A DNA stretch of 47,759 nucleotides from Clostridia bacterium. Its GTDB lineage: Bacteria; Bacillota; Clostridia; Christensenellales; Aristaeellaceae. The stretch covers positions 1 through 47,759 of the forward strand of contig JAFQOD010000079.1 in the NCBI GenBank assembly GCA_017395685.1, in the 5' to 3' direction. Shown here in pieces: positions 22,696 to 43,781 of this stretch (position 1 is the first letter of the stretch; the number at the start of each line of letters is the position of its first letter). The notes beneath the pieces were generated by a model. It had not been told where the DNA came from, did no database searches, and worked only from the letters and a program-made list of their open reading frames with translations. Position numbers and translations under genes: made by a program.

Positions 22696-22727
22696 AAAAA
22701 CCTTGAAACATTCGTTTCAAGGTTTTT
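22696..22727. terminator. Hairpin terminator, ancestral tRNA-Arg terminator
   Basis: Perfect stem CCTTGAAAC/GTTTCAAGG (22701-22709 with 22714-22722), extended by A and T runs, works in both directions. It ends the dehydrogenase gene on the plus strand. On the minus strand it directly follows the CCA end of the tRNA-Arg stump, as expected for the original terminator of that tRNA. Confidence 0.8.
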
Positions 22728-22774
22728 GGCGCGCCCCACAGGATTCGAACCTGTGACCTTTTGATTCGTAGTCA
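22727..22774 (-). repeat. Attachment-site copy, tRNA-Arg 3' stump (island left end)
   Basis: These 48 bp are identical to 43705-43752, the 3' part of the intact tRNA-Arg(ACG). They include the CCA end, acceptor 3' strand, T-arm, variable loop and most of the anticodon stem-loop. Beyond 22774 the match stops and the 5' half of the tRNA is missing, so no functional tRNA is made. This is the duplicated core expected from integration of an element at the tRNA. Confidence 0.88.
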
Positions 22775-22816
22775 CCTTAAAACCGGGACTCACCACTTCT
22801 TCCGTATATTAATTAT

Positions 22817-23542
22817 ATGCCTTGCCTTGCTACTCTTGCAGATGTTGCAGATAGCTTTCATAGGGAATTTTCCGTGGAATTCGCTCCGGGATGTCCCGTT
22901 AAGGTGAATGGAATTCCTGGTGGGTCTGCCACTCCTGATCTTCCCTATCCTCCCAAGAGTAAAACCGCCTATCGTATCCCTGATATCGAAAAGGTGATCT
23001 TCAACGAGGAAAGCGGCGTCACCGTTGTCCTCTGGGCGGATGATACCCGCACTGTCGTGCGTCTTGGCAAGGGCGAATCCTTTGATCGTTATGCGGGATT
23101 TTCTGCCGCCGTCATGAAGCGCCTCTTTGGCGGCACGTCCACCGCAAAAAAGGTTCTGGATTCCAAGGATGAAGCGATCATCAAGCAAAAGATTCAGCAG
23201 GCAAAGGAAGAGGAGCAGCGGAAGCTGGATGAAAAGGCAGTCGTTTTCCGTCAGAGAGCGCAGAAGCGCAAAGAAAAGCGGTATGCGGAACTGGTTCAGT
23301 ATTTTGTGGATGAATCCAAGGCCAAGGCCGATGCCGATGTCATCCTGAAGGCTGAAGCGGCAGATAAATCCCAGTTCATTGCCAATCTCTCCTCCCAGAT
23401 TGCCAAGGAAATCGTGCGCATCAATTCCGGGGTGACCCTGGGCGGCGTTCGCGCCCCTCTCATGGGCCTTTCCGATGAGGATCTGCCCAAGGTGCAGGCC
23501 GTCGCCAAAGAGATCCGGAAGGCAATCGAAAAATTCTGCTGA
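22817..23542 (+). CDS. Phage/mobile-element-type protein of unknown function
   Basis: A 241-aa protein. Residues about 52-95 (IEKVIFNEES, VVLWADDTRTVVR, ESFDRYAGFSAAVMKRLFG) match a motif I recall from small proteins in Firmicute phages and integrative elements, where it reads roughly VIFNxPATIVFWxDGTKTVVK. A Lys/Arg/Glu-rich coiled coil follows (about 110-165) and then an unfamiliar C-terminal part. No function is known to me. No ribosome binding site is seen before the ATG, which lies only 42 bp from the attachment core, so the original 5' region may have been altered. It is followed by a GC-rich hairpin. Confidence 0.6.
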   Translation: MPCLATLADVADSFHREFSVEFAPGCPVKVNGIPGGSATPDLPYPPKSKTAYRIPDIEKVIFNEESGVTVVLWADDTRTVVRLGKGESFDRYAGFSAAVMKRLFGGTSTAKKVLDSKDEAIIKQKIQQAKEEEQRKLDEKAVVFRQRAQKRKEKRYAELVQYFVDESKAKADADVILKAEAADKSQFIANLSSQIAKEIVRINSGVTLGGVRAPLMGLSDEDLPKVQAVAKEIRKAIEKFC

Positions 23543-23556
23543 TTCCATTTTATATG

Positions 23557-23593
23557 AAATCCCGGCGTTTGTAGCCTCCAGCGCCGGGATTTT
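23557..23593. terminator. Hairpin terminator between convergent genes
   Basis: Stem AAATCCCGGCG/CGCCGGGATTT (23557-23567 with 23582-23592) with a 14-nt loop, T-rich on both sides. It separates the phage-type gene from the converging M55 pseudogene. Confidence 0.7.
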
Positions 23594-23602
23594 CATATGC
23601 AT

Positions 23603-24400
23603 TTATAATACAAAATTGATCATCCGAAGCACTTCCATATAATCATCCGCCTCATATTCAATAGAAGCAGGGCTTGTCTGGATGACGCCAGGATAAGCGG
23701 CGGCAGCCTTGGCCTTGAAGTGATCTTTAAAAGAAATCTCCACCTTGAAATGATCCGGCAGGGGGGAACATACAATCTTTGGCTTGCTTTTCCATGGCTC
23801 GTTTGGCAGCAGCCTGGATCAGCTTGAGTGCCTTATTGGGATGGATGGAGATGGAACCCCGGCCGCAGCCTTCGCTCACCGCTACGGTTTCAATGTTTGG
23901 ATTGATTGCTTTCATCCAATCGCACAGGCCTTTATCCCCGGTGACCAAACGCACCGGCACATTCAGATACGCTGCCGTCAAGCTATTGAGCATCAGCTCC
24001 GGGCAGATGATCCCATTGATCTTCACATAGTTATTCCGGGTATTCATGGTATGGGAAAGCGGATTGGTATCCATCCCAGCGGCGGAATGATAGCCGGTAA
24101 AAATGACCCCGTCGTATCCCTTTTCCAGGCCCGCCATCATGCTCATAATATCGGTGCCCCAACCCCGGAAAATGCGCACTTCTTCCGGCAGCATTTCGGG
24201 GATCAGATTGCAGGCGCTGTCATGGGCATCCTTGACCAAAATCTCATCGCACCCCGCCTCCATAGCCCCCAGACAGGCTGCATTTACTTCTTTTGTCATT
24301 TGCTGCTGAAAATAAGGATAACGGTATGGCCATTTTCCGTTTCATCCCAAAGGGTAATACCAGTGGTACCTTCAATATCCGCAGAAAGAAAAAGCTTCAT
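23603..24400 (-). pseudogene. M55 D-aminopeptidase (DppA-like), two frameshifts
   Basis: Remains of a DppA-type zinc D-aminopeptidase, 798 nt, equal to 265 aa if restored. The ATG at 24400 has GGAGGGA upstream and begins MKLFLSADIEGTTG, the family start. After NGH the frame breaks (one base missing near 24325). The main body from MTKEVNAACLGAMEAG to AAAKRAMEKQ is in the shifted frame and keeps VKDAHDS and FTGYHSA. A second break lies at a run of six C on the coding strand (plus 23761-23766). With five C the frame continues through DHFKVEISFKDHF and ADDYMEVLRMINFVL to the TAA at 23603. The two indels cancel in length. It is last in an S58-aminotransferase-M55 operon. Confidence 0.8.
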
Positions 24401-24414
24401 TTATTTTCCCTCCA

Positions 24415-25252
24415 TTACTTCGTGGCTTTAAAATATTCATCCACGATGATCTGATACAGGGCCATGAACAGATCCTCCCGTTTCATCCCAGCCGCTTCCC
24501 CATCCGCCCGACAGGCACGTACGCAGGGATTGGTTGAGGAAGATGTAATGATCTCATCGGCATTTTTCAGATCTGATACCGTAAAGGGCTTTCGCTGACG
24601 GCAATGCCAAGGCCCTTGCAGGCTTTGATCAGATGGGCCCGGGCGATCCCTGGCAGGATCAGATTGTCAGTCGGCGCTGTATAAAATACGCCGTCCTTGA
24701 TGATGTGCACATTGCTATGGGAGCATTCCGTCACCCTTTCCCCCGGTCTGTACAATACGCATTCATAGCAGCCCGCCCGTTTTGCCCGCTCGTTGGCCAT
24801 GACGGCAGGAATAAGATTAAGCGTTTTGATATTGCAGTGAAGGAAGCGGGTATCCTCAGCAGTGATCAGCGAAACCGGCTCGGCGGAGGGCACGAATTCC
24901 TTAGGCGTCAGTGTCACCCACAGATTGGCCTTACCCTCCGGAAAAGCATGATTCCTCTTCCCGCTGCCATGGGTCACCTGATAATAAACCACCAAATCCC
25001 CCGAATCCATCTTCAATACCAGCGCATTAAGCAAATCTTTTAATTCCTGTTTATCCATCGGCATTTCGATTTCCAGAAGAGACGCGTTGCTAAACAGTCG
25101 ATCCACATGTTCATCCAAAGTGAAAATATGATAATTGCGGCACAGATGCGCCTCATACGCCCCATCCCCGAACCAACAGACCCGATCGCTCATGGGATTA
25201 TCATTTCACTCAGTTCACCAATTCGGCCATTATAATATGCTAGTTCCTTCAT
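24415..25252 (-). pseudogene. D-amino acid aminotransferase (class IV), two frameshifts
   Basis: Remains of a PLP fold-type IV aminotransferase most like D-alanine aminotransferase (Dat). It starts MKELAYYNGRIGELSEMIIP at 25252, loses one base before MSDRVCWFGDGAYEA, and loses another after AVSES, before KNADEIITSSSTNPCVRACRADG. Adding the two bases gives 840 nt, 279 aa, the normal family length. The PLP lysine region NIKTLNLIPAVMA and the motif VTECSHSNVHI are preserved. It lies between the S58 peptidase and M55 genes. Together they would release and interconvert D-amino acids from peptides or peptidoglycan fragments. Assembly error is possible, but backbone genes show no such defects. Confidence 0.82.
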
Positions 25253-25266
25253 GGCTTATTTCTCCT

Positions 25267-26241
25267 TTAAATAGTCCCGGAGGCAGGGAATCCTGCTGCC
25301 ATCCAGGCCATATCCGCCCCTGCATGCCACATAGATTGCAAAATAACCTCCTCCGCGCATTCGCCCACCGCACGGAAAGGGATATTCATCAAATCCTCCC
25401 GGAGGATCCGCTGCGTTTGAAAGCTATTCTCTGCTTTTTCCAAAGGAGCCGTAGTAAAGCCTATGGCAACCTCGCCGCTGCCATGGCCGATATAGGAACC
25501 AAGGCGGGCCATTCCAACGGATGTACGCCTCAATACGCGCTTTAATTGCCGGTGGGACAGGGGCAAATCAGTCGCTACGATCAGGATAATGCTGCCCTGA
25601 TCGCATTCAGCAAGATCGTCAGGGAGGCACGCCGCCCGAAAATCATCCGATGCGCCATAATTGCTTTGCACCAGCACGCCCATGGTATAGATCTTTCCTT
25701 CAATCTCCATCAGCCGTGATGCGGAGCCGATGCCGCCTTTCATGCCATAGCAGGTGGTGCCTCGTCCTGCACCTATTGCGCCTTGTTCAAAATCATCGGA
25801 GGCTGCTTCAATCGCTGCAAATACCTCCCACTCTCCTACAGGCCGTTTTGAAATATCACTCATTCTGCTGTCATTACATTCGCAAACAACTGGATTCACC
25901 GAGGTAAGCTTTATTTCATCCTGCGCACAAATACTGATCATATAAGACACCATGGCATCATGCACCTTGCCCACATTCAGGGTATTGGTAATAGCAATAG
26001 GGGTTTCCAGGGTGCCCAATTCAGCGATCTGCACAAGGCCCAGCGTTTTCCCAAAGTCATTGATCACATGAGAGGCGGCGATCAGCTTTTCAACAAAGGG
26101 GTTTTTCACCGGAGGCATCACCACAGTGACCCCTGTATGACACTCCCCCTGATCAACCGTGCAGTGCCCCACTTTCACCCCTGGCACATCGGTGATCAGG
26201 TTTCTTTCCCCATGGGGCAATTTACCAATCTTCATTTTCAT
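25267..26241 (-). CDS. S58-family aminopeptidase (DmpA/P1-like)
   Basis: N-terminal-nucleophile self-processing peptidase of family S58 (L-aminopeptidase/D-esterase type). The 324-aa protein has GVKVGHCTVD near the start, GAGRGTTCYGMKGGIGSASR near 157-176, and the expected cleavage point in DQG-SIILIVATDLPL near residue 218, where the serine after glycine becomes the nucleophile. IGHGSGEVAIGF follows. It looks intact. GGGAGG lies 7 nt before the ATG. It is first of a three-gene unit with the aminotransferase and M55 genes, which are both broken. Confidence 0.88.
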   Translation of the reverse strand: MKMKIGKLPHGERNLITDVPGVKVGHCTVDQGECHTGVTVVMPPVKNPFVEKLIAASHVINDFGKTLGLVQIAELGTLETPIAITNTLNVGKVHDAMVSYMISICAQDEIKLTSVNPVVCECNDSRMSDISKRPVGEWEVFAAIEAASDDFEQGAIGAGRGTTCYGMKGGIGSASRLMEIEGKIYTMGVLVQSNYGASDDFRAACLPDDLAECDQGSIILIVATDLPLSHRQLKRVLRRTSVGMARLGSYIGHGSGEVAIGFTTAPLEKAENSFQTQRILREDLMNIPFRAVGECAEEVILQSMWHAGADMAWMAAGFPASGTI

Positions 26242-29571: not shown

Positions 29572-30561
29572 TCAGAGGGAATTCTCTTTGGTGAACTTCA
29601 CCAGATCATCCACAGTAGTAAAAGCCAGACCAGTTACTGTATCAGCGCAGCCATAATAGATGGCAATGCGTCCAGTTTCAGCATCGGTCAGCGCAGCGCA
29701 GGGGAAGGTTACATTGGGAACATCGCCCACGCATTCATACAGTTCATAGGGAGCCATGATATAATCCTTGGTGCGATACTTTACCTTCCAGGGTTCGTCG
29801 ATATCCAACAGGGCGCAGCCCATGCGATACACGAAACCATTGCAAGTAGTAATAACCCCGTGATAAATCAGCAGCCAGCCTTCATCCGTTTCAATAGGTG
29901 CTGGGCCGGGGCCTACTTTGGTGGATTGCCATGCAGAGGTATTGCCGCCTACGGTGGTCATCACAAAGCGATGTTTTCCCCAGAATTCTAGATCCTTGGA
30001 TTGGCTGAGATAAATATCACCAAATGGAGTATGCCCATTATCGGAAGGTCGAGAGAGCATCATATACATGCCGTTGATTTTACGGGGGAATAAAACACCA
30101 TTCCTGTTAAAGGGCAGGAAAGCATTTTCCAGTTGGTGGAAGGTTTTGAAATCTTCCGTCCAGGCAACGCCGATGGTGGGGCCGTGATAACCGTTGCACC
30201 AGGTGACGTAATACTTGTCCTCCAATTGGGTGATGCGGGCGTCATAACGATATTCATTTTTAGCAATTTCCGGATCAGCGCCCACAAGATTCAGCGATTC
30301 ATCATCGATTTTCCAATGCAGGCCATCCTCGCTGCGCCCCGCAAAAATATCCATGCTGATGGATTTGCTGTCGCAGCGGAATACACCGGCGAAAGCACCC
30401 TGAAAAGGAACAACCGCGCTGTTAAATACGCTATTGGACCGCTTATTACCATTTCTGCCGATAATGGGATTACCGGAAAAACGCCATACAGGATTGTTAT
30501 CGCCAGCGGGACGATCCTCCCAAGGAATATTAGGAAGGGCTTTGCCAATAATTTTTGCCAT
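29572..30561 (-). CDS. GH130 beta-mannoside phosphorylase
   Basis: Inverting phosphorylase that cleaves beta-mannosides with phosphate to give mannose 1-phosphate. The 329-aa size and motifs [29 protein letters not shown] (general acid probably D107), [15 protein letters not shown] and [13 protein letters not shown] fit GH130. Length resembles the mannooligosaccharide or mannosyl-N-acetylglucosamine phosphorylase branches. Next to GH38 it may act on Man-beta-1,4-GlcNAc from N-glycan cores, which is inference. No signal peptide, so cytoplasmic. It precedes GH38 by 17 bp and follows the binding-protein gene after a 180-bp spacer holding a large hairpin. Confidence 0.9.
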
Positions 30562-30740: not shown

Positions 30741-32150
30741 TTATTTGCCAGCCCATTCGTTGATCTGTTCCTGGGCTGCGTCCACAATGGCGTCGAAACC
30801 GGCGTCCCGCATTTCCTGCATCATCTGGGGCACAGAAACTTCGGGATCGGTGGTACCGGTGAGGATTTCCCCGCGATAGCGGTTGAAGATCTCGATGCAG
30901 GAAGCCAGTTCATCCTGCACTTCACTGTTGTCGAAGAAGAAGCCCAACAGCACAGAGGGAACAGCGGCTTCATTCAGGGCCTTCACTTCATCCCACTGGT
31001 TCACGGGATCGGTATCCAGCTGGGTGACCTTGAAGAAGGTACCCTGAGTGTAGCCAGCCATGGTCCATTCAGAATTGTGCTTGGTCAGGCGGCCATCTTC
31101 GGTGTAATCCCAGTTGTAACCCTGTTCGCCATAGTAGAAGCTATCGCGGACATAAGCATCAGTGTTGACCAGATTGAGGAACTGCAGGGCCTTTTCAGGA
31201 TTTTCGCAGTTGATGGAGATGCTGTTGAGGGATCCCTGAACGGTGCCGTTGGAAACCAGGGTTTCGCCCAGCTGATAAGCAGCGGCATTCACGCCCATGT
31301 TGGGGCCCCAGGTGGAGATGGCGGCATAGGGCCAGCCCTGAGCCACGGAGCAAACGGCATACTTGTTGGTTTCAGCCTTGGTGGCAGCGTCGGAATTGAT
31401 CAGGCCTTCGTTATACCACTTGTGCAGGATCTTCAGGTCTTCCATGATATCGGCCTGTTCCAGGGTGGCAACAACCTTCAGTTCCTTATCGTCATGACGC
31501 ACGCTGACAGCGGGCAGACCAGAAGAGAAGGAGTCATAGTTAGCCAGCAGCCAGGAAGCGCCGCCGCTGGTGAGGGGGAACACGGATTCAGCAGTCTTAT
31601 CCTTGAGGGTATTGAGGACGGGTTCAATATCTTCCAGGGTATGGGCGTTGGAAGCGTCCAGATTGTTGGCATCCAGCAGATCCTTGTCCCATACAAAATA
31701 CTGGCTCATGGAAGAATCCTTGTAGGTGGGAACGGCGTAGATGGCGCCATTCACACGGCAGGCATCCCAATAACCGGCGGGAATCAGCTCCAGCAGGCCG
31801 GGGGCATTTTCTTCCAGCATTTCCTGGGTGATTTCCATATAGGCGCCCAGGGTAACGTCGTTCACATAAGTGCCGTCGTTGCCGAAGATGATGTCATAGG
31901 GTTCGTTGGTGTTGACGATGGTGTTGCGGCGATTATCCCAATCGCCCCAGGAGACGACTTCCATTTCGATGTTGACGCCAATCTTTTCAGCCAGATAGCT
32001 GTTCAGCTGAGCGGCCCAGGAATCATAGTTGGCAGGCATGCCGGAACCGACGGTGACCCACTTGAGGGTGACCACGTCTTCGGCGGCGACAGTGCCCATC
32101 ATGCCAAGTACCATCATCAGACCAAGGAGCAGAGCGAGTACCTTTTTCAT
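30741..32150 (-). CDS. Sugar ABC transporter substrate-binding protein
   Basis: Extracellular solute-binding protein, 469 aa, with an N-terminal signal peptide (MKKVLALLLGLMMVLGMMG, likely cleavage after TVAA). The mature part reads as a family 1 sugar-binding protein; the C-terminal half resembles the LipO/DUF3502 type found with LplB/LplC-like permeases. There is no lipobox cysteine, which is unusual for Gram-positive binding proteins. Recognisable segments include NTNEPYDIIFGND, GAIYAVPTYKDSS and ENPEKALQFLNLV. It follows the two permease genes in the mannoside operon. The ligand is inferred from GH130 and GH38 to be a mannose-containing oligosaccharide. Confidence 0.88.
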   Translation of the reverse strand: MKKVLALLLGLMMVLGMMGTVAAEDVVTLKWVTVGSGMPANYDSWAAQLNSYLAEKIGVNIEMEVVSWGDWDNRRNTIVNTNEPYDIIFGNDGTYVNDVTLGAYMEITQEMLEENAPGLLELIPAGYWDACRVNGAIYAVPTYKDSSMSQYFVWDKDLLDANNLDASNAHTLEDIEPVLNTLKDKTAESVFPLTSGGASWLLANYDSFSSGLPAVSVRHDDKELKVVATLEQADIMEDLKILHKWYNEGLINSDAATKAETNKYAVCSVAQGWPYAAISTWGPNMGVNAAAYQLGETLVSNGTVQGSLNSISINCENPEKALQFLNLVNTDAYVRDSFYYGEQGYNWDYTEDGRLTKHNSEWTMAGYTQGTFFKVTQLDTDPVNQWDEVKALNEAAVPSVLLGFFFDNSEVQDELASCIEIFNRYRGEILTGTTDPEVSVPQMMQEMRDAGFDAIVDAAQEQINEWAGK

Positions 32151-32217: not shown

Positions 32218-33144
32218 TTACCCCTTCACAGCGCCGATAGTCAGGCCGGAGATAAAATATTTCTGGAAGAAGGGATAGGCGCAGGCGATGGGGATAACGA
32301 TGACTACCGCGATGGCCATGCGCACCGATTCGCTGGGCATGGAATTGCGGTATTGCTGCAGGGAAAGGCCGGCAGATGGATTATTGGCCAGATAATCCAG
32401 GCTCTTCATCATGTTATTGAGCAGCGCCTGCAAGGAAATCAGATTGGCATTGCTGATGTAGAGAGAGGATTGGAACCAATCATTCCAGTAGCCGAAGGTA
32501 AGGAAGAGGGCAATAGTAGCCAGCACAGGGGTAGAAATCGGAATGACGATGGTGCTGAAAATTCGAAGCTGGCTGGCGCCGTCAATCTTAGCCGATTCGA
32601 TGATTGAATCGGGTATGGTCGACCGGAAGAAGGTTTTGCATATGATGATATTGAAGGAGGATACCGCAAGCGGCAATATCAGCACCCCCAAGGTATTCTT
32701 GAGCCCCAGAATATTGGCATTTACCACATATGAGGCCAGCATACCGCCGTTAAAAATCATGGGAATGAAAACCACCCAGGTATAAAAGCTTTTCAGCCGG
32801 AAGTAGGGCCGGGAAAGAGAATAGCCCATGGTAGTGGTCAGCAGCAGTCCAAGCAGCGTGCCCAGAATGGTAACAACCACCGAAATCCCCAGCGCCCCAA
32901 AGATCGTTCCCTTTTCATTCCAGAGGAATTGATACGCCGCGCCCGAAAGGCTGCGGGGAAGGAAGGAATAGCCATACAGTCGGATGGATTCCTCAGAGGA
33001 GATGGATACGATGAATACAAAAACAACAGGAATGATAGCGATAGCCGCCAAGAAAGTAAACAGAAAATTAAAGGATACATTGGTGAACGGCTTGACCCGA
33101 TTCATTTTCATGGAATCAGCCATGTTTTCTCTATTACCAGCCAT
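32218..33144 (-). CDS. Sugar ABC transporter permease (MalG/LplC-type)
   Basis: A 308-aa integral membrane protein with six hydrophobic segments and the cytoplasmic EAA loop ESAKIDGASQLRIFSTIVIP, through which it would contact the ATPase. The C-terminal FFQKYFISGLTIGAVKG is typical of the MalG/LplC branch. An internal ATG cluster at the N-terminus (MAGNRENMADSMKMN) leaves the exact start uncertain; the one at 33144 follows AAGGAGG. It lies between the LplB-type permease and the binding protein. No ATPase gene is present in the window, so a shared MsmX/UgpC-type ATPase elsewhere is expected. Confidence 0.9.
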   Translation of the reverse strand: MAGNRENMADSMKMNRVKPFTNVSFNFLFTFLAAIAIIPVVFVFIVSISSEESIRLYGYSFLPRSLSGAAYQFLWNEKGTIFGALGISVVVTILGTLLGLLLTTTMGYSLSRPYFRLKSFYTWVVFIPMIFNGGMLASYVVNANILGLKNTLGVLILPLAVSSFNIIICKTFFRSTIPDSIIESAKIDGASQLRIFSTIVIPISTPVLATIALFLTFGYWNDWFQSSLYISNANLISLQALLNNMMKSLDYLANNPSAGLSLQQYRNSMPSESVRMAIAVVIVIPIACAYPFFQKYFISGLTIGAVKG

Positions 33145-34328: not shown

Positions 34329-34357
34329 TTGACATACATTCATTTTTATGCTATACT
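34329..34357 (+). promoter_or_regulatory. Sigma-A promoter of the LacI-type regulator
   Basis: TTGACA (34329-34334), a 17-bp spacer and TATACT (34352-34357), about 40 bp before the ATG at 34399. Confidence 0.7.
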
Positions 34358-34398
34358 TTTTCCACAATTCAAAATCACCCGCACAAAGGATGATGATC

Positions 34399-35412
34399 AT
34401 GTCGAAAATGACCATGCAGGATCTGGCTGATGCGGTTGGCGTCTCCCGAATTACTGTCTGGAAGGCGCTGACTGGCCGCCCCGGAGTATCAGAGGCAAAA
34501 CGACGCCTGGTGCAACAGAAAGCTGCAGAATTGGGTTATCACGCCAGCCCGGAATCCTTTTCCGAGCAGGAAAAATCCTACACCTTTGCTCTGGCAGTAT
34601 CCAGGCCGGAATCATCGAATTTCTGGATGTCCATTATCCATTATATTGCCAAGGAATTATCCAAGTATAATATCAATCTGCTCTATACCTATATTCCCTC
34701 CGCCTATCATGAGGGCTATCATCTCCCCTCCACGCTTTTTTCCGAACATGTGGATGGCTGCATCGTGCTGAATATATATGATGAAACGCTGCTACGCATG
34801 CTAGCCGAAACTCCAATTCCCACCGTATTTCTGGATACCGTACCTCAATTAATGCCTGATAAGCTCAAGGGTGATCTGGTGCTCATCGACGGTCGCTCGC
34901 AATTAATGGAGATTACAAAGCGTCTTTTGGAATTGGGCTATCGCAAGCTGGGCTTTATCGGGGATGTGGATTATGCCCAAACAAATGCGGAGCGGTATCA
35001 TGGATTTCTGGATGCTCACAAGCAAATTGGGATCAAGGCGTCCTCCTCCCTCAGCCTGACAGGCAGCCTGTCCCTGCAATCCCATTATGAAGAGATCAGC
35101 GCTTTTCTAGATTCCCTTCCTGTCCTTCCGGATGGTTTTGTCTGCGCCAGCGACTTTATTGCCAATTTTATCAGCCGTTATCTGCACGAAACCAATCGCC
35201 CCGTGCCCGAACGCTTTATCCTTACCGGCTTTGATAATAACAGTGAATATTCCTTCGTTGCCAATTCCATCACCACCGTGCAAGTGGATACAGCATCCCT
35301 GGGCCGTCAATTGGCAAGAAAGATGATTTTCCGTGCCGATTATCCTGATGCACCCACTGAAGTATCCTATATCCGCACCGATATTCTCTGGCGGGGAGAA
35401 TTGGCAGAATAA
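34399..35412 (+). CDS. LacI-family transcriptional regulator
   Basis: A 337-aa regulator with an N-terminal helix-turn-helix (TMQDLADAVGVSRITVWKAL) and a hinge-like GYHASPES segment, then a periplasmic-binding-protein-like ligand domain (LAVSRPESSNFW, VDGCIVLNIY, LGFIGDVDYAQT, LTGFDNNSEYSF). The recognition helix reads VSRITVWKALTG, where most LacI proteins have TVSRVLN, so its operator may be unusual. The ATG at 34399 has AAAGGA 8 nt upstream; an ATG at 34348 would lie within the promoter. It is divergent from the mannoside operon and is the likely repressor or activator of it. A bidirectional terminator follows. Confidence 0.9.
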   Translation: MSKMTMQDLADAVGVSRITVWKALTGRPGVSEAKRRLVQQKAAELGYHASPESFSEQEKSYTFALAVSRPESSNFWMSIIHYIAKELSKYNINLLYTYIPSAYHEGYHLPSTLFSEHVDGCIVLNIYDETLLRMLAETPIPTVFLDTVPQLMPDKLKGDLVLIDGRSQLMEITKRLLELGYRKLGFIGDVDYAQTNAERYHGFLDAHKQIGIKASSSLSLTGSLSLQSHYEEISAFLDSLPVLPDGFVCASDFIANFISRYLHETNRPVPERFILTGFDNNSEYSFVANSITTVQVDTASLGRQLARKMIFRADYPDAPTEVSYIRTDILWRGELAE

Positions 35413-35430
35413 TTCCATATTACCAAAATA

Positions 35431-35482
35431 ATACCCTCCTTGTGCCGAGCAATCTGCCGGATGCAAGGAGGGTATTTATCTA
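35431..35482. terminator. Bidirectional terminator between lacI-type gene and GH29
   Basis: Perfect 12-bp stem ATACCCTCCTTG/CAAGGAGGGTAT (35431-35442 with 35464-35475) with a 21-nt loop, followed by T-rich DNA on both strands. Confidence 0.8.
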
Positions 35483-36763
35483 TACTTTTTCGTAATAAGC
35501 TTTCATATTGCGGATTTCCGCATCGCCATTCTTCTTTAAAATCTGCAATACAAGCTTTCCGGTTCGGATGGTAGGAAAAGTACAGATGCATTTATGCCCA
35601 ATGCTTGCCCCCCCCCGATACAGGCATACCCTTTGGCCCCAGCTATGAGGCAAATGAGCATACAGGGCAAATTCCTCCACGCTCTCCACCATTTCCAGAT
35701 TCTCCTCAATCACCACCCGATTGACCAGCACAGGCTGATCACCTGCGTTCTGGGGTGGAAAGGGCGTAATTTGGATGCCCCATTGATCCTCCGTCTCTTT
35801 TTGAACAGGCCCAAATTCCATTAACGCATTGCCATATCGCTTTTCCAGCAACGCCCCAAATTCCCTTAAGCGCTGCGTATCCTTTTCCGGCAGCAATCCG
35901 TTTCGATCAGGACCTATATTCAAAAGGAAATTCGCACCCCTGCCGACAGACATTTCATAAATCCCCAGCAATTCATCCGCTTCCTTGGTGGTATCTTCAT
36001 TATCCTCACAGTCAAACCATGTGGAGCGCATTTTAAAATCACATTCAGTAGGAAGGAATTTCTCCGTCTCCATTTCTTCCTTTTCCGTTGTATTTACTGA
36101 AAAATCCACTGCCTTTATAGAGCTGAAATTGGGCATCGGGGCATAACCATCCTCATTGCCAACCCAGCGGGTATCGGGATCCCACATATTAAAAATCAAA
36201 ATTTCCGGCTGCATGCTGCGGATGGCCGCCAAGATCCGATTTTGATCATATTGATGGCCTTCCGATCCGCAGCCATCAAACCACAGATAATCAATTTTTC
36301 CATAATGGGTCAGCAATTCGCTAATCTGATTGATAAAATAATCATCATATTCCTTACCATCGCTGAAAGGCACCGTCCCCTACTGCTGAGCAGGGGAATA
36401 ATACAAGCCTACCTTCAAATCATAAGCGCGGCATGCCTCCACAAATTCCCTAACCACATCCCCTTTTCCATCCTTCCAGGGAGTATTGGCCACGGAATAG
36501 GACGTATATGCCGAGGGCCAATTGGCAAAGCCATCATGATGCTTGCATACCAGCACTCCATAGCGGGCGCCCGCTTCCTTGATTTCCCGGATCCATTGCA
36601 TGCAATCCAGTCGATCAGGATTGAAAACGGATGCATCCATCCTTCTCTGATCCCAATCCTGATAGCCCTTATAAAAGCTGCGGATTCCGAAATGAAAAAA
36701 TACGCCGAATTCCCATTCCATAAACTCCAGTTGCTGTCGGGTTGGAATCAATTTTTTCTTCAT
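35480..36763 (-). pseudogene. GH29 alpha-L-fucosidase interrupted by an amber codon
   Basis: A 1284-nt alpha-L-fucosidase-like gene. The N-terminal part has WEFGVFFHFGIRSF, CKHHDGFANWPS and LKVGLYYSPAQ. A TAG at 36382-36380 then stops the frame, and the same frame resumes with GTVPFSDGKEYDDYFINQISELL and the nucleophile region YLWFDGCG. The family usually has tryptophan at the stop (SPAQW-like), so TGG to TAG is the simplest explanation. The gene also ends in TAG at 35482-35480, so TAG is a real stop here. It probably worked on fucosylated oligosaccharides. Internal GTG at 36373 could start a fragment but without the N-terminal half. Confidence 0.85.
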
Positions 36764-36877: not shown

Positions 36878-37687
36878 TCATCCTACGATACCGCTGCGTT
36901 CCACGCCCTGAACGAACTTGCGCTGCACAAACAGATACAGCACAACCAGGGGCATGAATACCAGCAGGGCCGCCGTCTTGGCGATAGCGCTTTCGTATAC
37001 AGGGCTTTTGAGCAGGAAGGCATAGTTGACGGGCACCTTGGAAGAAATGGAGGCCAACGCTTCATCCACCGATCCGGTAGCCTTATTGAAGGCCAGCATC
37101 AGGAAATTCACATTGTTCTGATCAAACAGCCGGACATAGTAGGGATCATTCCAGGACCATACGTAGCTGAGCACAGCCACCGTGAGAATACCAGCCCCGG
37201 CAGAGGGAATCACGATGTTGGTGAAAGTGCGCAGGAAACCGGCGCCATCCATATAAGCCGCCTCTTCCAGTTCCTTGGGCAGACCACGGAAGGTTTGACG
37301 GAAAATATAGATGTACAAACCGCTCTTTAATCCCATGCCCAGTGCATTCATAATGAACAGCGATACGCTGGAGCCCAACAGATTGATGGATTTTCCTGTG
37401 AACAGCTTCACCAGCCCGAAAATATCAAATTCTTTGAAGAACAGATACTGGGGCAGCATGAACATCTGAGGCGGCACCACAATGGTGAAGATGGCCAGGG
37501 CAAAGAGGATGCTGCACCCGGGGAACTTGAGCCGTGCAGAGGAATAGACCGCCAGCATGGCGCTCACCGTCTGCAAAAAGGCGATAATCGCTGTGAATAC
37601 CAAAGTATAGGGCAGCGATTTGCCATAATTGAGCATCAGGGAACTTACATGCCAGTTTTCAATAGAGATCCGTGCGGGAATCCACAT
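36878..37687 (-). pseudogene. MalG-type sugar permease, N-terminally truncated
   Basis: A 269-aa membrane protein with the EAA loop EAAYMDGAGFLRTFTNIVIP and the C-terminus VQRKFVQGVERSGIVG of MalG-type permeases. It begins at MWIPARISIENWHV, which normally follows a first membrane segment of about 50 residues. The frame upstream hits a TAG about 16 codons before, and no permease-like sequence follows. The 5' end appears lost at a junction near 37.69 kb, and no binding protein or MalF partner is next to it. The protein might still be made from the ATG at 37687 but would lack its first helix. It lies upstream of the GH29 gene, separated by a terminator. Confidence 0.65.
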
Positions 37688-37706
37688 GGAAGAGGAGAAG
37701 GCAAAG

Positions 37707-37853
37707 ATGGAAAGGGAATCTTTTACCTACGCTGGGATAGAAAATTTTCCTAACGATAAATGCTTTAGTCCGGAAATCACTCATTTTGATGCGGTGTATG
37801 ATGGAAGGCATTGGTATATCACCGATTTGCATCATGGTGGATTCATGACATAG
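37707..37853 (+). CDS. Possible 48-aa protein at a rearrangement junction
   Basis: Short reading frame (MERESFTYAGIENFPNDKCF to HHGGFMT) with GGAG 9 nt before the ATG. It reads protein-like (THFDAVYDGRHWYITDLHH) but I recognise no family. It starts just outside the truncated permease, so it may be a remnant of the DNA that replaced the 5' end of that gene. Confidence 0.3.
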   Translation: MERESFTYAGIENFPNDKCFSPEITHFDAVYDGRHWYITDLHHGGFMT

Positions 37854-38152
37854 CGTTTCCGCATATATTTTTCCCATAGCAACTGCTAATCCTGCCGCAA
37901 CGCCTGCACAAGCAGCCCTGACGAAAAACTCATTTTTTCCCCCACATTCAGTTCCCTTCGTAATATTATATCATATCATACCTCTGATTCAAAGCACAAG
38001 CAGGATCATCTGCATCAGGCGTGACTGATGCCCTGCGAAAAAGAAGATTGAAGGTATTCCTCCTTTTTGATATAGCACAAGGCGACTGAAGTTTAAAAAC
38101 TACAGCCGCCTGCATATTATGCAATTGATTATCCGATCAAGCTTTTTACGTG
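37854..38152. other. Spacer without an assignable gene
   Basis: About 300 bp without a supported gene. On the minus strand a short frame (KNEFFVRAACAGVAAGLAVAMGKIYAETLC) runs toward the permease junction and could be debris. An imperfect hairpin (about 38082-38112) precedes the end of the isomerase gene but lacks a T-run. Confidence 0.4.
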
Positions 38153-38947
38153 TTATGTCATTGTCATAATTTCCCTAATCTTCTGTGCAGTATCTTCTAT
38201 GGCACAGATGCCGCTTTCCACCTCGCTGATCAAATATCCATCATATCCAATAGCACGCAATTCCGCCATCACTCTGGCAAAATCAATGGTACCCTCCAGC
38301 AAAGGCGGCCAGCAGCCATTGGTGGCATTCCCTTTCCAATCCTTCATATGTACCATTTTGATATGATTGCCAAGAATACGCACCCAATGATGAGGATATT
38401 GGAATACAGCCATATTCCCCGGATCAAAGTAAAATCCGATGGCCTGGCTTCCCACTTCATCCAACAGACCTTTCATTTCCAGCGGGCTGAACAGAAAGCC
38501 GCTCCACACGAACTCAATCGCCAGTGAAACGCCTGCTGCCTCCGCCCTGTGGGCAAGGGCACGCAAGCCCGTTACCGCATTTTCATAAGCCTTATCATAA
38601 AAGAGATCGGGCTGCAAATAGCCAAAGGTATACAAAGTGGTTTTCACACCAAGTTTGCGGGCAATTTCCAGTTCAGCGCAGGTTTGCTCAATATTTCTTT
38701 TCTGCTCCTCGCCTCCGGCAAGCAGATTGGCGCTACACAGGCTATGCACCAGAGAAGTCACAGGCAAAGCATATCGTTGGGACAATTCCTTAATCTTGGA
38801 AATGCTCTCTTCAATATTTGCCAATTGAAGCGGGCTTTCTCCCCCCAGACACAACTCTACCCCCTCATAGCCGGCAGCTGCACTTTGGGCAAAAAATTCT
38901 TCCAGAGATAACGCCGGCACTATCAGTTGGCTGATTCCTACCTTCAT
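38153..38947 (-). CDS. Sugar phosphate isomerase/epimerase-type TIM barrel
   Basis: A 264-aa protein of the xylose-isomerase-like TIM-barrel superfamily (AP endonuclease 2 domain). Typical points are MKVGISQL at the start, GYEGVELCLGG near 26-36, LAIEFVWSG near 140-148, IGFYFDPGNMA near 169-179, HMKDWKG near 199-205 and YLISEVESG near 237-245, carrying the likely metal-binding residues. The substrate cannot be read. GGAG lies upstream of the ATG. It is the third gene of a leftward operon with a Gfo/Idh/MocA oxidoreductase and an aldo-keto-reductase-like gene, a common partnership in inositol or unusual sugar catabolism. Confidence 0.85.
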   Translation of the reverse strand: MKVGISQLIVPALSLEEFFAQSAAAGYEGVELCLGGESPLQLANIEESISKIKELSQRYALPVTSLVHSLCSANLLAGGEEQKRNIEQTCAELEIARKLGVKTTLYTFGYLQPDLFYDKAYENAVTGLRALAHRAEAAGVSLAIEFVWSGFLFSPLEMKGLLDEVGSQAIGFYFDPGNMAVFQYPHHWVRILGNHIKMVHMKDWKGNATNGCWPPLLEGTIDFARVMAELRAIGYDGYLISEVESGICAIEDTAQKIREIMTMT

Positions 38948-38963: not shown

Positions 38964-39926
38964 TTACAGCACGATTATTCTGCCCGTTGCAGCCGCCTGG
39001 TCGATCGCCCGGGTCGTCTTCAGCGATTGCAGCACGCTGGATATATCGCTTTTATCGGGGTACCTGTTTTGCTCACAGCAATCAATGAAGTAACGCAATT
39101 CTTCTGCATACGGATCTGTTTCTTCCAGCGAGACCTTTCGGTTTCCTTCATGATCTGTCCAGGTAAACGCCCCGGCAGAATCACAAAATACCATGCCCTT
39201 CCCACCGATTACCTCCATGGTGGCATAGAAATCAAAGGACTCTGGCATCCCCCAGGATGCAAACAAATCTACGATGCAATTTTCATACCGCAGCTGTGCC
39301 TTGGCATGAAGCGGCACCTGATCATTATCGTGCACGATATCGCCGACCACGGCCTTGGGCACACCCAGCAGCCATACCACATAATCGATATCGTGTATCA
39401 TCAGATCATACACCAGTCCACCGCTGAGGGAGGACTGATATAGCCAGTTGCTGGCGGACCACACCGGCCGTTTCTGGCGTCTGGTACAGCCGATGGAGCT
39501 CACCTCTCCAAGGGTTTGATTTTTTACCATATCCCGAATCTTATCGTAACAATTCCAGAAGCGAAGAACATGGGCTGTCATAAGACGCAGATCATACTGA
39601 CGAATCAGAAGGCTGATCCCACTGATTTCTTCTTCCTTTATCACAAGAGGTTTTTCGCAAAGGATATTTTTTGTGAATCTGCACGCCTGGCTGATAGCAG
39701 CAAAGTGCAGATGCGTAGGCAAGCAAATATCCACAAAATCAATCTTGTCAAAGCGCAACGCAGCCAGATTGGGAGCCCAGCTGCAACCCAGCCGGCCAGC
39801 CAATGCCTGGCCTTTTTCACGGTCAATATCAACTACCGCTGTAATTTGCACATTCTCAAGTTTTTGATACGCTTCCCCGTGACAAACTCCCATTGAGCCG
39901 CAACCCATGATTACTCCGTATTGCAT
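38964..39926 (-). CDS. Gfo/Idh/MocA-family oxidoreductase
   Basis: NAD(P)-dependent oxidoreductase of sugars or cyclitols. The 320-aa protein has a Rossmann start (YGVIMGCGSMGVCHGEAY), IDFVDICLPTHLH near 65-77, the conserved CEKP motif near 93 and a C-terminal substrate domain with GGLVYDLMIHDIDYVVWLLG. The ATG at 39926 fits the family N-terminus. A TTG at 39932 has AGGGTG at better spacing and would add two residues. It lies between the AKR-like and isomerase genes in the same operon, under the AraC-type regulator by position. Confidence 0.9.
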   Translation of the reverse strand: MQYGVIMGCGSMGVCHGEAYQKLENVQITAVVDIDREKGQALAGRLGCSWAPNLAALRFDKIDFVDICLPTHLHFAAISQACRFTKNILCEKPLVIKEEEISGISLLIRQYDLRLMTAHVLRFWNCYDKIRDMVKNQTLGEVSSIGCTRRQKRPVWSASNWLYQSSLSGGLVYDLMIHDIDYVVWLLGVPKAVVGDIVHDNDQVPLHAKAQLRYENCIVDLFASWGMPESFDFYATMEVIGGKGMVFCDSAGAFTWTDHEGNRKVSLEETDPYAEELRYFIDCCEQNRYPDKSDISSVLQSLKTTRAIDQAAATGRIIVL

Positions 39927-39944
39927 AGGCAATTTTCACCCTAT

Positions 39945-40792
39945 TTACTGATCCAGATCTTCCAGAATCTTATTGATAATACGCACGTCCTGTGCCAATT
40001 CATCATGATTTTCCTGGTATACACCGATTACACCGATATCCTGAGGCTTCATATTTGCGTAAGCATCCCGGAATTCCTTTTCCAGAATGGTTTCATATTC
40101 GGAAGGGTCCTTACCGGCAAAAACCTGACCGCCGGCCAGCATCTTGAATACCAGGCAAGTCTTTTTCACCTGCTTGATAACCGGGAACATTTCATACTTA
40201 TCATCCGGATACATTTCGAGCGCTTTGGATTTGCCGGTGATAAAGCCGCTCTGCTGGCCGCACTGCTGCTTGCGAGCATTATACAGGCAGGTCATATAGA
40301 AATCGGCGCCCAATCTTCCTCTTCCGCACACATGATAATTTCCGGTTCATGGGAACACAGACCGGTGGGCAAGCTAGATTCTTCCTTGATCCTTCTGATT
40401 CGGGCCTTGGCTTCTTCCACATTTCCGGTTTCGATCATATAATCAAAGTTGCCGCCCTGATGATAGATAACAATGGGGCCGCAACCCTTCATCTGCATGA
40501 TGTTGGCGCCCAAATCCATTGCAGGATAGGATTGGAACATCAGATTCATACTGCCGCCTTCATTGACATACTGCCGCCACACGCGGAAAGTAAAATCATT
40601 GGCCAGGCCCAAGTAAGCATTGATTCCCAATTCCTCTGCATGGCGCAGCAGCTTCAGGAAATTATCTGCAGTATAATAATCCATCATTTTTGATCCAGGT
40701 GTGGTATCCTCAATGTAGGAATGTCCATGTACAGGGTTATCCCCTAAAATCAGTTTCGATACCTGTGTGCCAAAAAAATCTACAGTTTTCAT
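39945..40792 (-). pseudogene. Aldo-keto-reductase-like TIM-barrel protein, one frameshift
   Basis: Two partial frames form one 848-nt gene that needs one more base to be 282 aa. The first half starts MKTVDFFGTQVSKLILGDNP and reads to MCAEEEDW. The second half starts GADFYMTCLYNARKQQ in the next frame. Adding one G to the GGG run at the junction near 40307-40309 restores DWGADFYM. It recalls aldo-keto-reductase-like proteins seen in sugar gene clusters, though I cannot name a reaction. It is first in a leftward operon divergent from the AraC-type regulator. Confidence 0.75.
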
Positions 40793-40892: not shown

Positions 40893-40893
40893 T

Positions 40894-40910: not shown

Positions 40911-40923
40911 TTTTGCACATATT

Positions 40924-40952: not shown

Positions 40953-41033
40953 GGAATGTAGAAAAACCACAATCTTTTTCTCTAAAAATCCGCAAAACAT
41001 CACCATAAATTATTGTACACAGGAGCGTATCCC

Positions 41034-41858
41034 ATGCGGAAAGAATACTATAATACCGAGAATCAGATGCTGGATCTGTATATGATCAATTGTGGCTATG
41101 AAGACTGCATTGATAATTTTGTCAGTTTCTCTTCCATCCGGAATTATTATCTGATCCATTACATTACAAAAGGATCCGGATATTACGAAACCAACGGACA
41201 AAAAACCCACATTGCCGCAGGCGATATTTTTCTGATATCGCCTGGGCAGCTTGTCCGCTATACCTCCCCGGATCCAAAGGATACCTGGTCATTCTGCTGG
41301 ATCGGTTTTTCCGGAAACAAGGCAAAAGAATATCTGAATCTGACCGGTATCACCGCTGATATTGAACGATCGGTCAATATCCTGTTCTACAGAAATATTA
41401 TGGAATGCCTTGCTTATATCGAAGATAACAAAAATAATATTTCACAATTGAAGCTGAATACCTATGTGTTGAATTGTCTGCTGTCGCTGACAAAGAATAC
41501 CGTTTCCAAGCCGGTACGAGCGGAAACACATGCTGAAAGGGCACTCAGCTACATTGAATATAATTACGGCAATGAAATCACCATCAAGGATGTATGCACC
41601 TATCTTAATCTGGATCGCACGTATTTTTACCGGATTTTCAAAAAACACACTGGTATGGCCCCGGAACAATATATCATGCATTACAGAATCAGAAAATCGC
41701 TGGAATTGCTGCAATACAGCAAGCACTCCATTTCGGAAATCGCTTCTTCGGTAGGGATCAATAATGTGTATTATTTTTCCCGGTTATTCCGGAAAATCAT
41801 GAATATAAGCCCCACTGAATACAGAAAAACGCTGGATAAAACAAAAATACTGCAATAA
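41034..41858 (+). CDS. AraC-family transcriptional regulator
   Basis: A 274-aa regulator with an N-terminal cupin-like sensing domain (IHYITKGSGYYETNG, GDIFLISPGQ) and a C-terminal double helix-turn-helix (IEYNYGNEITIKDVCTYLNLDRTYFYRIFKKHTGMAPEQY and SISEIASSVGINNVYYFSRLFRK region). The ATG at 41034 has AGGAG 8 nt upstream; an in-frame TTG at 41013 is rejected. It is divergent from the isomerase operon and probably activates it in response to a sugar. It appears intact. Confidence 0.9.
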   Translation: MRKEYYNTENQMLDLYMINCGYEDCIDNFVSFSSIRNYYLIHYITKGSGYYETNGQKTHIAAGDIFLISPGQLVRYTSPDPKDTWSFCWIGFSGNKAKEYLNLTGITADIERSVNILFYRNIMECLAYIEDNKNNISQLKLNTYVLNCLLSLTKNTVSKPVRAETHAERALSYIEYNYGNEITIKDVCTYLNLDRTYFYRIFKKHTGMAPEQYIMHYRIRKSLELLQYSKHSISEIASSVGINNVYYFSRLFRKIMNISPTEYRKTLDKTKILQ

Positions 41859-41997: not shown

Positions 41998-42347
41998 ATG
42001 CTTGCAATTACTCGTAAGCCCAAGGGCACCTCTTCCCGTGAAGAATAGGAAACAACCATTATCATCGACCCGACCACAAAGAAGGCTTCCATCTTTTCTA
42101 CCGTCCCTGCCATGATCCGCAAACTATATGATTTTGCAGAGCAAAGCGAGGAAGTGAAATTAACCTCGATAATGAATTTTGCCTCGGCATTCTTGTCCCC
42201 ATGAATTGGATTCGCGTCCGTCCTCCCATCAAGCGTGAACTGAGCGAGGAACAAAAGGCTGCCGCCGCAGAAAGATTGTCTGCATTAAGGCAAAAAATAA
42301 GAGCTGCAGTTCCCCTTGACAAAGGAGTCCGCAGCTCTGTATGTTAA
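41998..42347 (+). pseudogene. Phage-type small protein gene, nonsense and frameshift
   Basis: Starts MLAITRKPKGTSSREE with AAAGGAG upstream, meets a TAG, and continues in frame with ETTIIIDPTTKKASIFSTV and MIRKLYDFAEQSEEVKLT. It then shifts frame near 42164 and continues with DNEFCLGILVPMNWIRVRPP and ELSEEQKAAAAERL to a TAA at 42347. The pattern (ETTI, EDGI/NEF, W+R+PP, EEQ+KAAAERL) recalls a small protein found upstream of integrase genes in Firmicute phages and islands, from memory. At least two lesions make it a relic. Confidence 0.65.
42316..42345 (+). promoter_or_regulatory. Weak candidate promoter of the integrase
   Basis: TTGACA (42316-42321), an 18-bp spacer and TATGTT, overlapping a GAGCTGC/GCAGCTC stem (about 42301-42337) that could be regulatory. 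Confidence 0.3.
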
Positions 42348-42381
42348 AAACTAAGCCAGTATCTGGCGGAAAGGACACTAT

Positions 42382-43530
42382 TTGGAACGAGAAGAGCTGC
42401 AACAGCTAATCGCTTCAGCGGCCACGCTTGCAGCCGCTACGATCTTTGACAATTATATGTGGAATGATGATGTGGAAACGAAATCGAAAGGAGAATCGAA
42501 TATGGCCTCCACAAGACAACGATTCCACATCACACTCCCCAATGGCGAAAAGGTCTGGCTCACAGGCAATACAGCCGCAGATGCATTCTCCTCTGGCTTA
42601 CAAAAGTATGGAGCCATGTTTTCAAAGCCCAAAGAAGAAAATACTCCTGAATTTGGCACCTATGCCCTTGAGTGGCTTCATACATATAAAAAGCCAAAGC
42701 TTCGCCAAACCACCTATCGCTCGTATGAAAGCCAGCTTACCAAACACATCATTCCCTTCTTCAAAGGAAAGCCGGTGGGCACGGTGGCAACAGCAGATAT
42801 CCAAAGCTTCTTCAATGAACGCGGTCATCTCTCAAAGTCCAGTGCCCGCCAGATGCGTATCATCCTTCATGAGATATTTACAGGGGCAATCGAAGATGGC
42901 TATTGCTCGAAGGATCCCACCCAAAGCAAACGCCTCTCCCTGCCAGAAAAGGTCACTAAAAGAGAGGCACTTTCCACCGGTGACTTCAGGGACATCATAA
43001 GCAATCTGCAAAATCTAAAAGCTGATGATGCCCGATTGCTTGCTCTCCTGATGTTCACCGGAATGAGAAGAGGCGAAGTCCTCGGCTTGCACTGGGATGA
43101 TATAGATTTGGAGGATGGATTAATCTATGTCCGGCGAGGCGTCACCTTCAAATCAAACCAATCAATCGTTGGCAAGACGAAAAGCAAGGCTGGCATTCGC
43201 AGTATCCCCATCTCCCACCAGCTCCTGCCTTATTTGTCCCAGCCGGAAGAAGGCTACATTGTTGGCGGAGGAGATGAACCCATCACCGAAAGCACATTCG
43301 ATAGGACGTGGCAACGAATTGAGCGAACCATTGATCTCCATGGCGCCACCCCTCACATTTTCCGCCACACCTATCTTACACAGCTCTCTTCGGCAGGTGT
43401 TGCACCTAAAACGATCCAGGCAATCGCCGGTCATTCTGACATCAATATCACCATGAATCGCTATGTCCACAAGCTGGATGAAGGGATTCTGGATGCGGGT
43501 AAAAAGTTCAGTGAATTGACATTTTGTTGA
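42382..43530 (+). CDS. int: Tyrosine-family site-specific integrase
   Basis: Phage-type tyrosine recombinase that should join the island to the tRNA-Arg site. From the TTG at 42382 it is 382 aa. A DNA-arm-binding N-terminal part and a core-binding domain (about 90-190) precede the catalytic domain, with R229 in TGMRRGEVLGLHW, H325 and R328 in PHIFRHTYL, H351 in AGHSD and the nucleophile Y361 in MNRYVH, so the catalytic set looks complete. Start is uncertain: the TTG has AAAGGA upstream, while an in-frame ATG at 42502 has AAAGGAG about 8 nt upstream and gives a more usual N-terminus. It lies 174 bp from the intact tRNA. Confidence 0.93.
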   Translation: MEREELQQLIASAATLAAATIFDNYMWNDDVETKSKGESNMASTRQRFHITLPNGEKVWLTGNTAADAFSSGLQKYGAMFSKPKEENTPEFGTYALEWLHTYKKPKLRQTTYRSYESQLTKHIIPFFKGKPVGTVATADIQSFFNERGHLSKSSARQMRIILHEIFTGAIEDGYCSKDPTQSKRLSLPEKVTKREALSTGDFRDIISNLQNLKADDARLLALLMFTGMRRGEVLGLHWDDIDLEDGLIYVRRGVTFKSNQSIVGKTKSKAGIRSIPISHQLLPYLSQPEEGYIVGGGDEPITESTFDRTWQRIERTIDLHGATPHIFRHTYLTQLSSAGVAPKTIQAIAGHSDINITMNRYVHKLDEGILDAGKKFSELTFC

Positions 43531-43617
43531 CAGTCTCAAAGTGCCGCAAACCCTTGTGGCATAAGGCTTTCCGGGCTTTTTTCTACGGCGTTTTTTGACA
43601 AATCGTTGACAAAATCG
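43516..43617 (+). repeat. Two paired TTGACA repeats, candidate integrase arm sites
   Basis: TTGACA occurs at 43516 and 43527, and again at 43595 and 43606, each pair spaced 11 bp, near one helical turn. The second pair shares TTGACAAATCG and TTGACAAAATCG. They lie between the integrase and the attachment core, where tyrosine integrases often have arm-binding sites. They could instead be promoter-like sequences, and the first pair overlaps the end of the integrase gene. Confidence 0.4.
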
Positions 43618-43672
43618 CACTTTTCACCAAAAAAGGTCTTTTTTCAGGCGTTCTTTCGTTTCCCAAAAAACG

Positions 43673-43698
43673 AAAAAACCCTTGATTTACAAGGGTTT
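43673..43698 (-). terminator. Terminator of tRNA-Arg carried by the island
   Basis: Minus-strand stem AAACCCTTG/CAAGGGTTT (43690-43698 with 43676-43684), a 5-nt loop, then TTTTTT. It begins 6 nt after the CCA end and differs in sequence from the hairpin at the other island end. Confidence 0.8.
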
Positions 43699-43704
43699 CC
43701 TCTC

Positions 43705-43781
43705 TGGCGCGCCCCACAGGATTCGAACCTGTGACCTTTTGATTCGTAGTCAAACACTCTATCCGGCTGAGCTAGGGGCGC
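43705..43781 (-). tRNA. tRNA-Arg (anticodon ACG), island integration site
   Basis: A 77-nt tRNA: acceptor GCGCCCC pairs with GGGGCGC, D-arm AGCTCAGCCGGATAGAGT, anticodon loop CTACGAA (anticodon ACG), T-arm GTTCGAATCC and an encoded CCA. It reads CGU and related codons after A34 modification. Its 3' 48 bp (43705-43752) are the right copy of the attachment repeat. The gene is intact because the element restores its 3' end. Confidence 0.97.

Follow-up and report, generated by a model that had tools for sequence, protein, structure and literature searches.

A 21-kb block of a contig from a clostridial genome is very probably a mosaic, tRNA-targeted genomic island that was integrated by its own tyrosine integrase and whose cargo has been decaying since. 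The contig (GenBank JAFQOD010000079.1, positions 1 to 47,759; Aristaeellaceae), hereafter the window, is contig C78 of G000, a 2.83-Mb draft genome in 79 contigs whose source is an uncultured bacterium, probably of the gut. The block lies between a tRNA-Arg(ACG) gene and a displaced 3' fragment of the same gene, and carries genes for peptide and sugar use. The island is of an ordinary kind, already partly broken, and the evidence points to no new mechanism. In the labels used below, G000 is the source genome, other G numbers are family genomes, L numbers are the loci compared, and g14 is another genus.

Island boundaries and integrase

A 48-bp sequence occurs as a perfect direct repeat at 22727-22774 and 43705-43752 (48/48 identical), exactly where an earlier sequence-only reading of the window had placed it. 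No longer direct repeat was reported in the window, and the number of such pairs expected by chance from base composition is about 1.5e-20. ARAGORN calls a tRNA-Arg(ACG) at 43705-43781 on the minus strand (Rfam tRNA, 67.1 bits), and the repeat corresponds to its nucleotides 30-77, beginning in the anticodon stem (5' strand) and running through the encoded CCA end; this match bears out the proposal that one copy completes the tRNA and the other is a stump. No tRNA is called at the stump by ARAGORN or Rfam, and the stump overlaps no open reading frame (ORF) of 80 aa or more, falling between ORFs 21509-22642 and 22790-23602. It lies downstream of the complete tRNA and in the same orientation (both minus, the stump at lower coordinates), at a start-to-start distance of 20,978 bp. 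A terminator-like hairpin stands directly behind each repeat copy, an arrangement consistent with an incoming element that supplied a tRNA 3' end and terminator and displaced the native pair; the hairpin at 22696-22727 may be the original tRNA-Arg terminator.

The integrase is an unbroken ORF of 382 aa, convergent with the tRNA and 174 bp from its 3' end, so that the complete tyrosine recombinase reported inside the intact copy is upheld by the ORF and its PF00589 match. Pfam also finds N-terminal SAM-like domains. Motifs TGMRRGE, HIFRHTY and AGHSDINITMNRY begin at residues 226, 325 and 349, and it is in these that we place the catalytic residues Arg, His-x-x-Arg, His and Tyr. NCBIfam Xer and integron models score well under their cut-offs (e.g. 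89.8 against 220, 61.9 against 329.6 and 48.3 against 265 bits). The earlier view that repeat, integrase and tRNA orientation agree with integration is likewise supported, the stump being a 3' end that lies downstream in the same orientation.

That islands rebuild their target tRNA and displace a fragment of it is established (PMC4383910). In that source, Islander tRNA and tmRNA islands are defined by a tDNA, a downstream 3' fragment of it in the same orientation, a tyrosine integrase between the two, and a length of 2-200 kb, which takes in the distance given above. All eight checks drawn from those rules agreed with the island; for the Xer and integron exclusion NCBIfam models were used, where Islander itself uses HAMAP profiles and a hidden Markov model (HMM). 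Nothing essential differs from the definition, apart from breaks in several cargo genes and the remnant state of the genes at both ends.

Relatives of the integrase were found at E<=1e-30 in 29 of 150 family genomes, its own genome counted, and 18 loci from 16 other genomes were inspected. At 13 of these a tRNA gene called by ARAGORN lies no more than 320 bp from the integrase, with the tRNA 3' end facing the integrase at 10 and the 5' end at three (L182, L183, L197). The tRNAs whose 3' end faces an integrase relative include Arg-CCG, Arg-ACG, Pro, Asn, Met and Val. Within G000 itself, two more integrases are likewise directed at tRNA 3' ends, of tRNA-Ala and tRNA-Met (L163, L164), and three tyrosine recombinases lie inside 34 kb on another contig (G000:C24, 65574-99054).

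The tRNA-Arg(ACG) site in related genomes

The same tRNA was compared within the genus on 22 stretches of 3-20 kb each, six of the 28 other genus genomes giving no such stretch. Integrases were sought in the 6 kb downstream of the tRNA at the 22 loci, four of which had less than 2 kb of sequence, and were found at two by HMM and Pfam, in G008 and G010; both integrases were in the training set of the HMM, and Pfam recognises both as well. G008 (L090, G008:C30, 5067-13752) encodes a 432-aa integrase, 25% identical to that of the window, together with a DUF3799 (PDDEXK-like) gene, and has a perfect 46-bp tRNA repeat (48 bp with two following bases) 8.6 kb away; it carries a second island at tRNA-Arg(ACG), with a different integrase. 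In G010 (L073, G010:C86, 3116-11502) the integrase lies about 170 bp behind the tRNA, a cluster of M55 peptidase, class IV aminotransferase (AT4) and S58 peptidase genes lies 5.8 kb from the tRNA, and no tRNA stump was found on the stretch compared. Since different integrases stand at tRNA-Arg(ACG) in G008 and G010, the site has been used repeatedly. Outside the genus, a relative of the integrase lies downstream of tRNA-Arg(ACG) in G147 and upstream of it in G140.

Arm-site-like repeats were noted by eye in G020, G023 and G027, and no integrase was found there (HMM; one G027 ORF also by Pfam). In G021 (L095, G021:C70, 1832-3209) an integrase lies on the 5' side of a 45-nt tRNA-Arg fragment, a polarity unlike that of the usual island. 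In G002 and G003 the tRNA matches that of the window except at nucleotide 17, outside the repeat, so a donor from that subgroup would leave two identical repeats.

The gene degV adjoins tRNA-Arg in G001, G009 and G017, where no integrase was recognised, and in G010. The gene on the other flank, DAPDH, was inspected at 18 other genus loci for up to 1.5 kb either side, some ended by a contig edge, and tRNA-Arg stands beside it at none of them. DAPDH adjoins a tRNA-Ser pair in G001 and G002 (L030 and L024 compared) and lies 1.4 kb from one tRNA-Ser in G028. In the window the tRNA-Ser pair (5084-5318) lies 16 kb from DAPDH, the left flank being rearranged.

The sequence-only reading had set the island against two findings that would speak for plain inheritance, namely the same 21 kb in relatives lacking repeat or integrase, and vertical phylogeny for all cargo. 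The mannoside operon described below occurs in none of the 22 genus stretches, nor does every cargo gene look vertically inherited.

Cargo genes

Table 1. Features of the island with their positions in the window, strand and the basis of each assignment.
Feature	Position	Strand	Basis
Terminator-like hairpin behind stump	22696..22727	-	14-nt perfect inverted repeat, 4-nt loop, T run
attR, displaced tRNA-Arg(ACG) 3' fragment, nt 30-77	22727..22774	-	48/48 vs 43705-43752
Chimeric ORF, 241 aa	22817..23542	+	C-terminal ~47 residues dihydrodipicolinate synthase family; remainder weak phage match
M55 D-aminopeptidase, frameshifted (1 deletion, 1 insertion)	23727..24299	-	PF04951, alignment with C59 copy
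Class IV aminotransferase, frameshifted (2 deletions)	24567..25193	-	PF01063, TIGR01121
S58 peptidase, 1-base deletion near 3' end	25267..26241	-	PF03576
GH38 alpha-mannosidase, open, 1052 aa	26396..29554	-	PF01074/PF07748; full-length homologues about as long
GH130 mannoside phosphorylase, open	29572..30561	-	PF04041; nearest solved relative Uhgb_MP, 4udg, E 6.3e-148
Solute-binding protein (DUF3502)	30741..32150	-	PF12010; role from synteny
ABC permease 1	32218..33144	-	PF00528
ABC permease 2	33176..34147	-	PF00528
LacI-family regulator	34348..35412	+	PF00356, PF13377
GH29-type alpha-fucosidase, in-frame TAG at codon 128	35480..36763	-	PF01120 in both pieces
Lone ABC permease	36878..37687	-	PF00528
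Sugar-phosphate isomerase/epimerase-type TIM barrel	38153..38947	-	PF01261
Gfo/Idh/MocA oxidoreductase	38964..39932	-	PF01408
ORF of unknown family, two overlapping pieces in different frames	39945..40792	-	probable frameshift
AraC-family regulator	41013..41858	+	PF12833, PF02311
Small gene, possibly phage-type	41998..42347	+	frame seemingly interrupted by one stop and one frameshift
Tyrosine integrase	42382..43530	+	PF00589 5.2e-26, phrog_1, catalytic motifs
Integrase-side region	43531..43704	.	two TTGACAAA repeats 11 bp apart, terminator-like hairpin directly behind tRNA
tRNA-Arg(ACG), restored; attL core 43705-43752	43705..43781	-	ARAGORN, Rfam, repeat

Pfam was run on 20 ORFs, of which 19 lie in the island (from about 95 aa up, two of them probably non-genes) and one is degV. 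In the mannoside operon (26.4-35.4 kb) every gene is open. Among solved structures the predicted GH130 enzyme is nearest to Uhgb_MP, and an alpha-mannosidase gene adjoins it, a likeness to the Uhgb_MP/BT1033-type phosphorylases that act in N-glycan breakdown (PMC8950772). A beta-1,4-mannooligosaccharide phosphorylase (5ayd) follows close behind at 9.1e-136, and all three NCBIfam GH130 models fall below cut-off. Uhgb_MP is a phosphorylase tied to N-glycans (PMC8950772), and the beta-1,4-mannose in the core of N-glycans can be cleaved off by GH130 enzymes (PMC9522356). The likeliest role of the operon would be the use of N-glycan-derived mannosides.

Operons of LacI regulator, two permeases, binding protein, GH130 and GH38 occur in other Clostridia in the same order as in the island (L166, L167, L168, L169, L250), and L229 matches through GH130, where the locus ends; these loci differ from the island in that no relative of the window integrase was found in the stretch (tblastn, E<=1e-15). 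At least 7 of the 28 other genus genomes have a GH38 gene at 67% identity or more, two candidates being scored per genome. In the GH38 tree the island stands beside two g14 rows (Shimodaira-Hasegawa-like approximate likelihood-ratio test, SH-aLRT, 90) and apart from four own-genus rows, and the binding protein is 75% identical to that of G220 (g14) and 66% to that of G028. The island GH130 pairs with L222 (97) in a tree of 67 rows. A record labelled "Bacteriophage sp." (MT836258.1, unverified; L315) carries the mannoside operon with GH38 cut by the record end, and its operon identities nearly equal those of Gemmiger formicilis (L250); it is probably a mislabelled bacterial contig.

The D-peptide cluster (M55-AT4-S58) is frameshifted in all three genes. 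For the aminotransferase the best NCBIfam model is the D-amino-acid transaminase TIGR01121, below cut-off. A second copy on contig C59 of the same genome (L162) has open frames of 328, 279 and 265 codons. DNA identity over the cluster is 75.5% between island and C59, 74.7% between island and G001, and 73.9% between C59 and G001. A recent duplication within the genome was considered and rejected because the island copy is about as far from C59 as from G001. Five one-base indels are unique to the island among the four copies compared (the others being C59, G001 and G010), one in S58 and two each in the aminotransferase and M55 genes. With G001 as reference, substitutions at codon positions 1, 2 and 3 number 38, 35 and 145 on the island branch and 36, 18 and 193 on the C59 branch (136 unassigned), with an excess of second-position changes on the island branch (Fisher p 0.003). 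If G001 is the outgroup, we infer that most of the divergence arose under selection and that decay came later. The S58 tree (21 rows) groups the island with C59 and G001 (83/81) and then with G002 (81/93), none of these starred, and the island end branch is the longest. S58 is present in 14 of the 28 other genus genomes.

In the sugar module (35.5-41.9 kb), the TAG of the fucosidase gene has no counterpart at the same position in the loci of 11 relatives (0/11), among which the sole inner stop (L312) lies at the gene's end; the piece searched finds relatives at 66% identity or less. Flags for an internal TGA in relatives raised the idea of a recoded TGA, which was rejected, the stop in the window being TAG. 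No partner permease or binding protein was recognised beside the lone permease, and 37600-38200 is unmatched among the loci compared. The oxidoreductase has no match at E<=1e-70 in the 307 other genomes of the 308 family genomes searched, with up to seven candidates scored per listed genome. Neither piece of the ORF at 39945-40792 matched Pfam, PHROGs or NCBIfam.

At the far end from the tRNA, the C-terminal 47 or so residues of the chimeric ORF are 79-80% identical to stretches in G000:C23 and G003, and the dihydrodipicolinate synthase family (PF00701) was seen on two full-length homologues of this part. A 76-aa piece from the middle has a weak phage match (E 3e-4), and the whole 241-aa ORF has no significant PHROGs (best 0.095), NCBIfam or PADLOC family, no phage match at 1e-5 and no IMG/VR relative; we read it as a possible recombination scar. 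At the other end, the second half of the small gene has a weak likeness to phrog_15660 (0.0069) and to a region that precedes the integrase in phage record MT840047.1 (E 0.2). The earlier proposal of phage-type genes at the two ends thus holds weakly, the genes being broken or chimeric and remnants at best. A phage origin by homology was tried and set aside, with no significant phage family for the chimeric ORF and one distant IMG/VR contig (26%) matching the integrase. Conjugation, relaxase, type IV secretion and phage-structural families gave no hit among the 19 island ORFs given to Pfam, in line with the earlier remark that no transfer genes were in view, and no structural or packaging genes were recognised among the scanned island ORFs with Pfam and PHROGs.

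Origin of the island

Integration would have proceeded by recombination, through the tyrosine integrase, between the chromosomal tRNA gene and an attP carrying the 3' 48 bp of tRNA-Arg(ACG) and a terminator. The tRNA would thereby have been rebuilt from element DNA, and the native 3' end, together with its terminator, shifted 21 kb away. The cargo is mosaic: the D-peptide cluster is close to that of the host's genus subgroup, the mannoside operon belongs to a type found in many Clostridia, and part of the sugar module is foreign to the family. As no transfer gene was recognised, movement between cells may have depended on a helper phage, an integrative and conjugative element, or general DNA transfer or uptake. 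After arrival, second-copy or incomplete modules would have broken, most of all the D-peptide cluster, with the mannoside operon and the integrase remaining open. The integration event, the donors, the helper transfer and any present ability to excise are what we infer from these comparisons.

Several observations weigh against this explanation. None of the 28 other genomes of the genus showed an empty degV-tRNA-DAPDH site, the flanks never being contiguous in the stretches compared, and the predicted arrangement of DapB-like gene, tRNA-Arg and degV was seen in no relative examined; the sequence downstream of the tRNA differs among relatives. The island's G+C content (0.485) does not stand out, and of its five modules just two, the mannoside block and the region of the integrase, surpass every left-flank window in dinucleotide bias. 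No tRNA was called at five of the 18 integrase loci (L181, L184, L185, L195, L196), though L195 has a 46-nt tRNA-Arg-like fragment near the integrase. The S58 and GH38 tree placements have moderate support, own-genus G028 adjoins the GH38 group (84), and GH130 is 84% identical to own-genus G028 versus 79% to G220 of g14, contrary to the other operon genes. Contig C59 is only 5850 bases long, so its membership of the genome is uncertain.

A serious rival, which we regard as possible though doubtful, is stepwise accretion. A single integration of a small element with an integrase, perhaps a prophage, would have been followed by loss of most of that element's genes, and other recombination events would later have added the catabolic modules; what the repeat marks would then be the old element and not a unit that ever moved with its cargo. 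The broken small gene beside the integrase, its order before the integrase as in MT840047.1 (at the E of 0.2 only), the chimeric ORF and the differing affinities of the modules are as this account would have them. Mosaic cargo, however, is also normal in islands that move as one unit, and the island contains no further direct repeat of at least 20 bp. It is unlikely that the block is a cargo-carrying prophage or conjugative element stripped of its transfer genes by one large deletion: the integrase family is frequent in phages (phrog_1; 1879 phage records match at 1e-5, all below 60% identity) and weak phage matches lie at both ends, but structural, packaging, relaxase and secretion genes went unrecognised among the scanned ORFs, there is no near plasmid-record match, and the sole near phage-record match is the probably mislabelled MT836258.1. 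Entire metabolic operons would also be unusual prophage cargo.

Very little weight can be given to chance enclosure, with chromosomal genes caught between the tRNA and a fragment made by rearrangement and the integrase a bystander. Genus members do show rearranged flanks, S58 genes are frequent among them, and G010 has its cluster near the same tRNA, yet the window holds the full signature of integration, namely a 3' fragment, downstream, in the same orientation, identical at 48/48 positions, and an integrase at the expected place. Equally improbable is an assembly artefact that joined two loci at the repeat, or that the frameshifts are sequencing errors. The genome is a draft in 79 contigs and several of the cluster indels sit, by eye, in short C runs; against this, the integrase and the restored tRNA are immediate neighbours on one contig, no split occurs in the mannoside operon genes or in the 10 flank ORFs given to Pfam (some flank genes, not all, being compared with relatives), and the broken frames are concentrated in five island genes and the small gene beside the integrase.

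As a tRNA-targeted island, the block offers an example, from one uncultured lineage, in which glycan-use genes would enter the chromosome by tRNA integration and second-copy cargo then break. As a catabolic island it is ordinary; one tRNA used by different integrases gives a handle for mapping exchange across the genus. A bolder proposal, which we consider quite unlikely, makes tRNA-Arg(ACG) a genus-wide docking site where catabolic cassettes including M55-AT4-S58 pass from one species to another through integrases alone, with a helper for transfer, and make up a class of 'metabolic satellite' islands of gut Clostridia. M55-AT4-S58 does lie near tRNA-Arg(ACG) in both G000 and G010, with different integrases.

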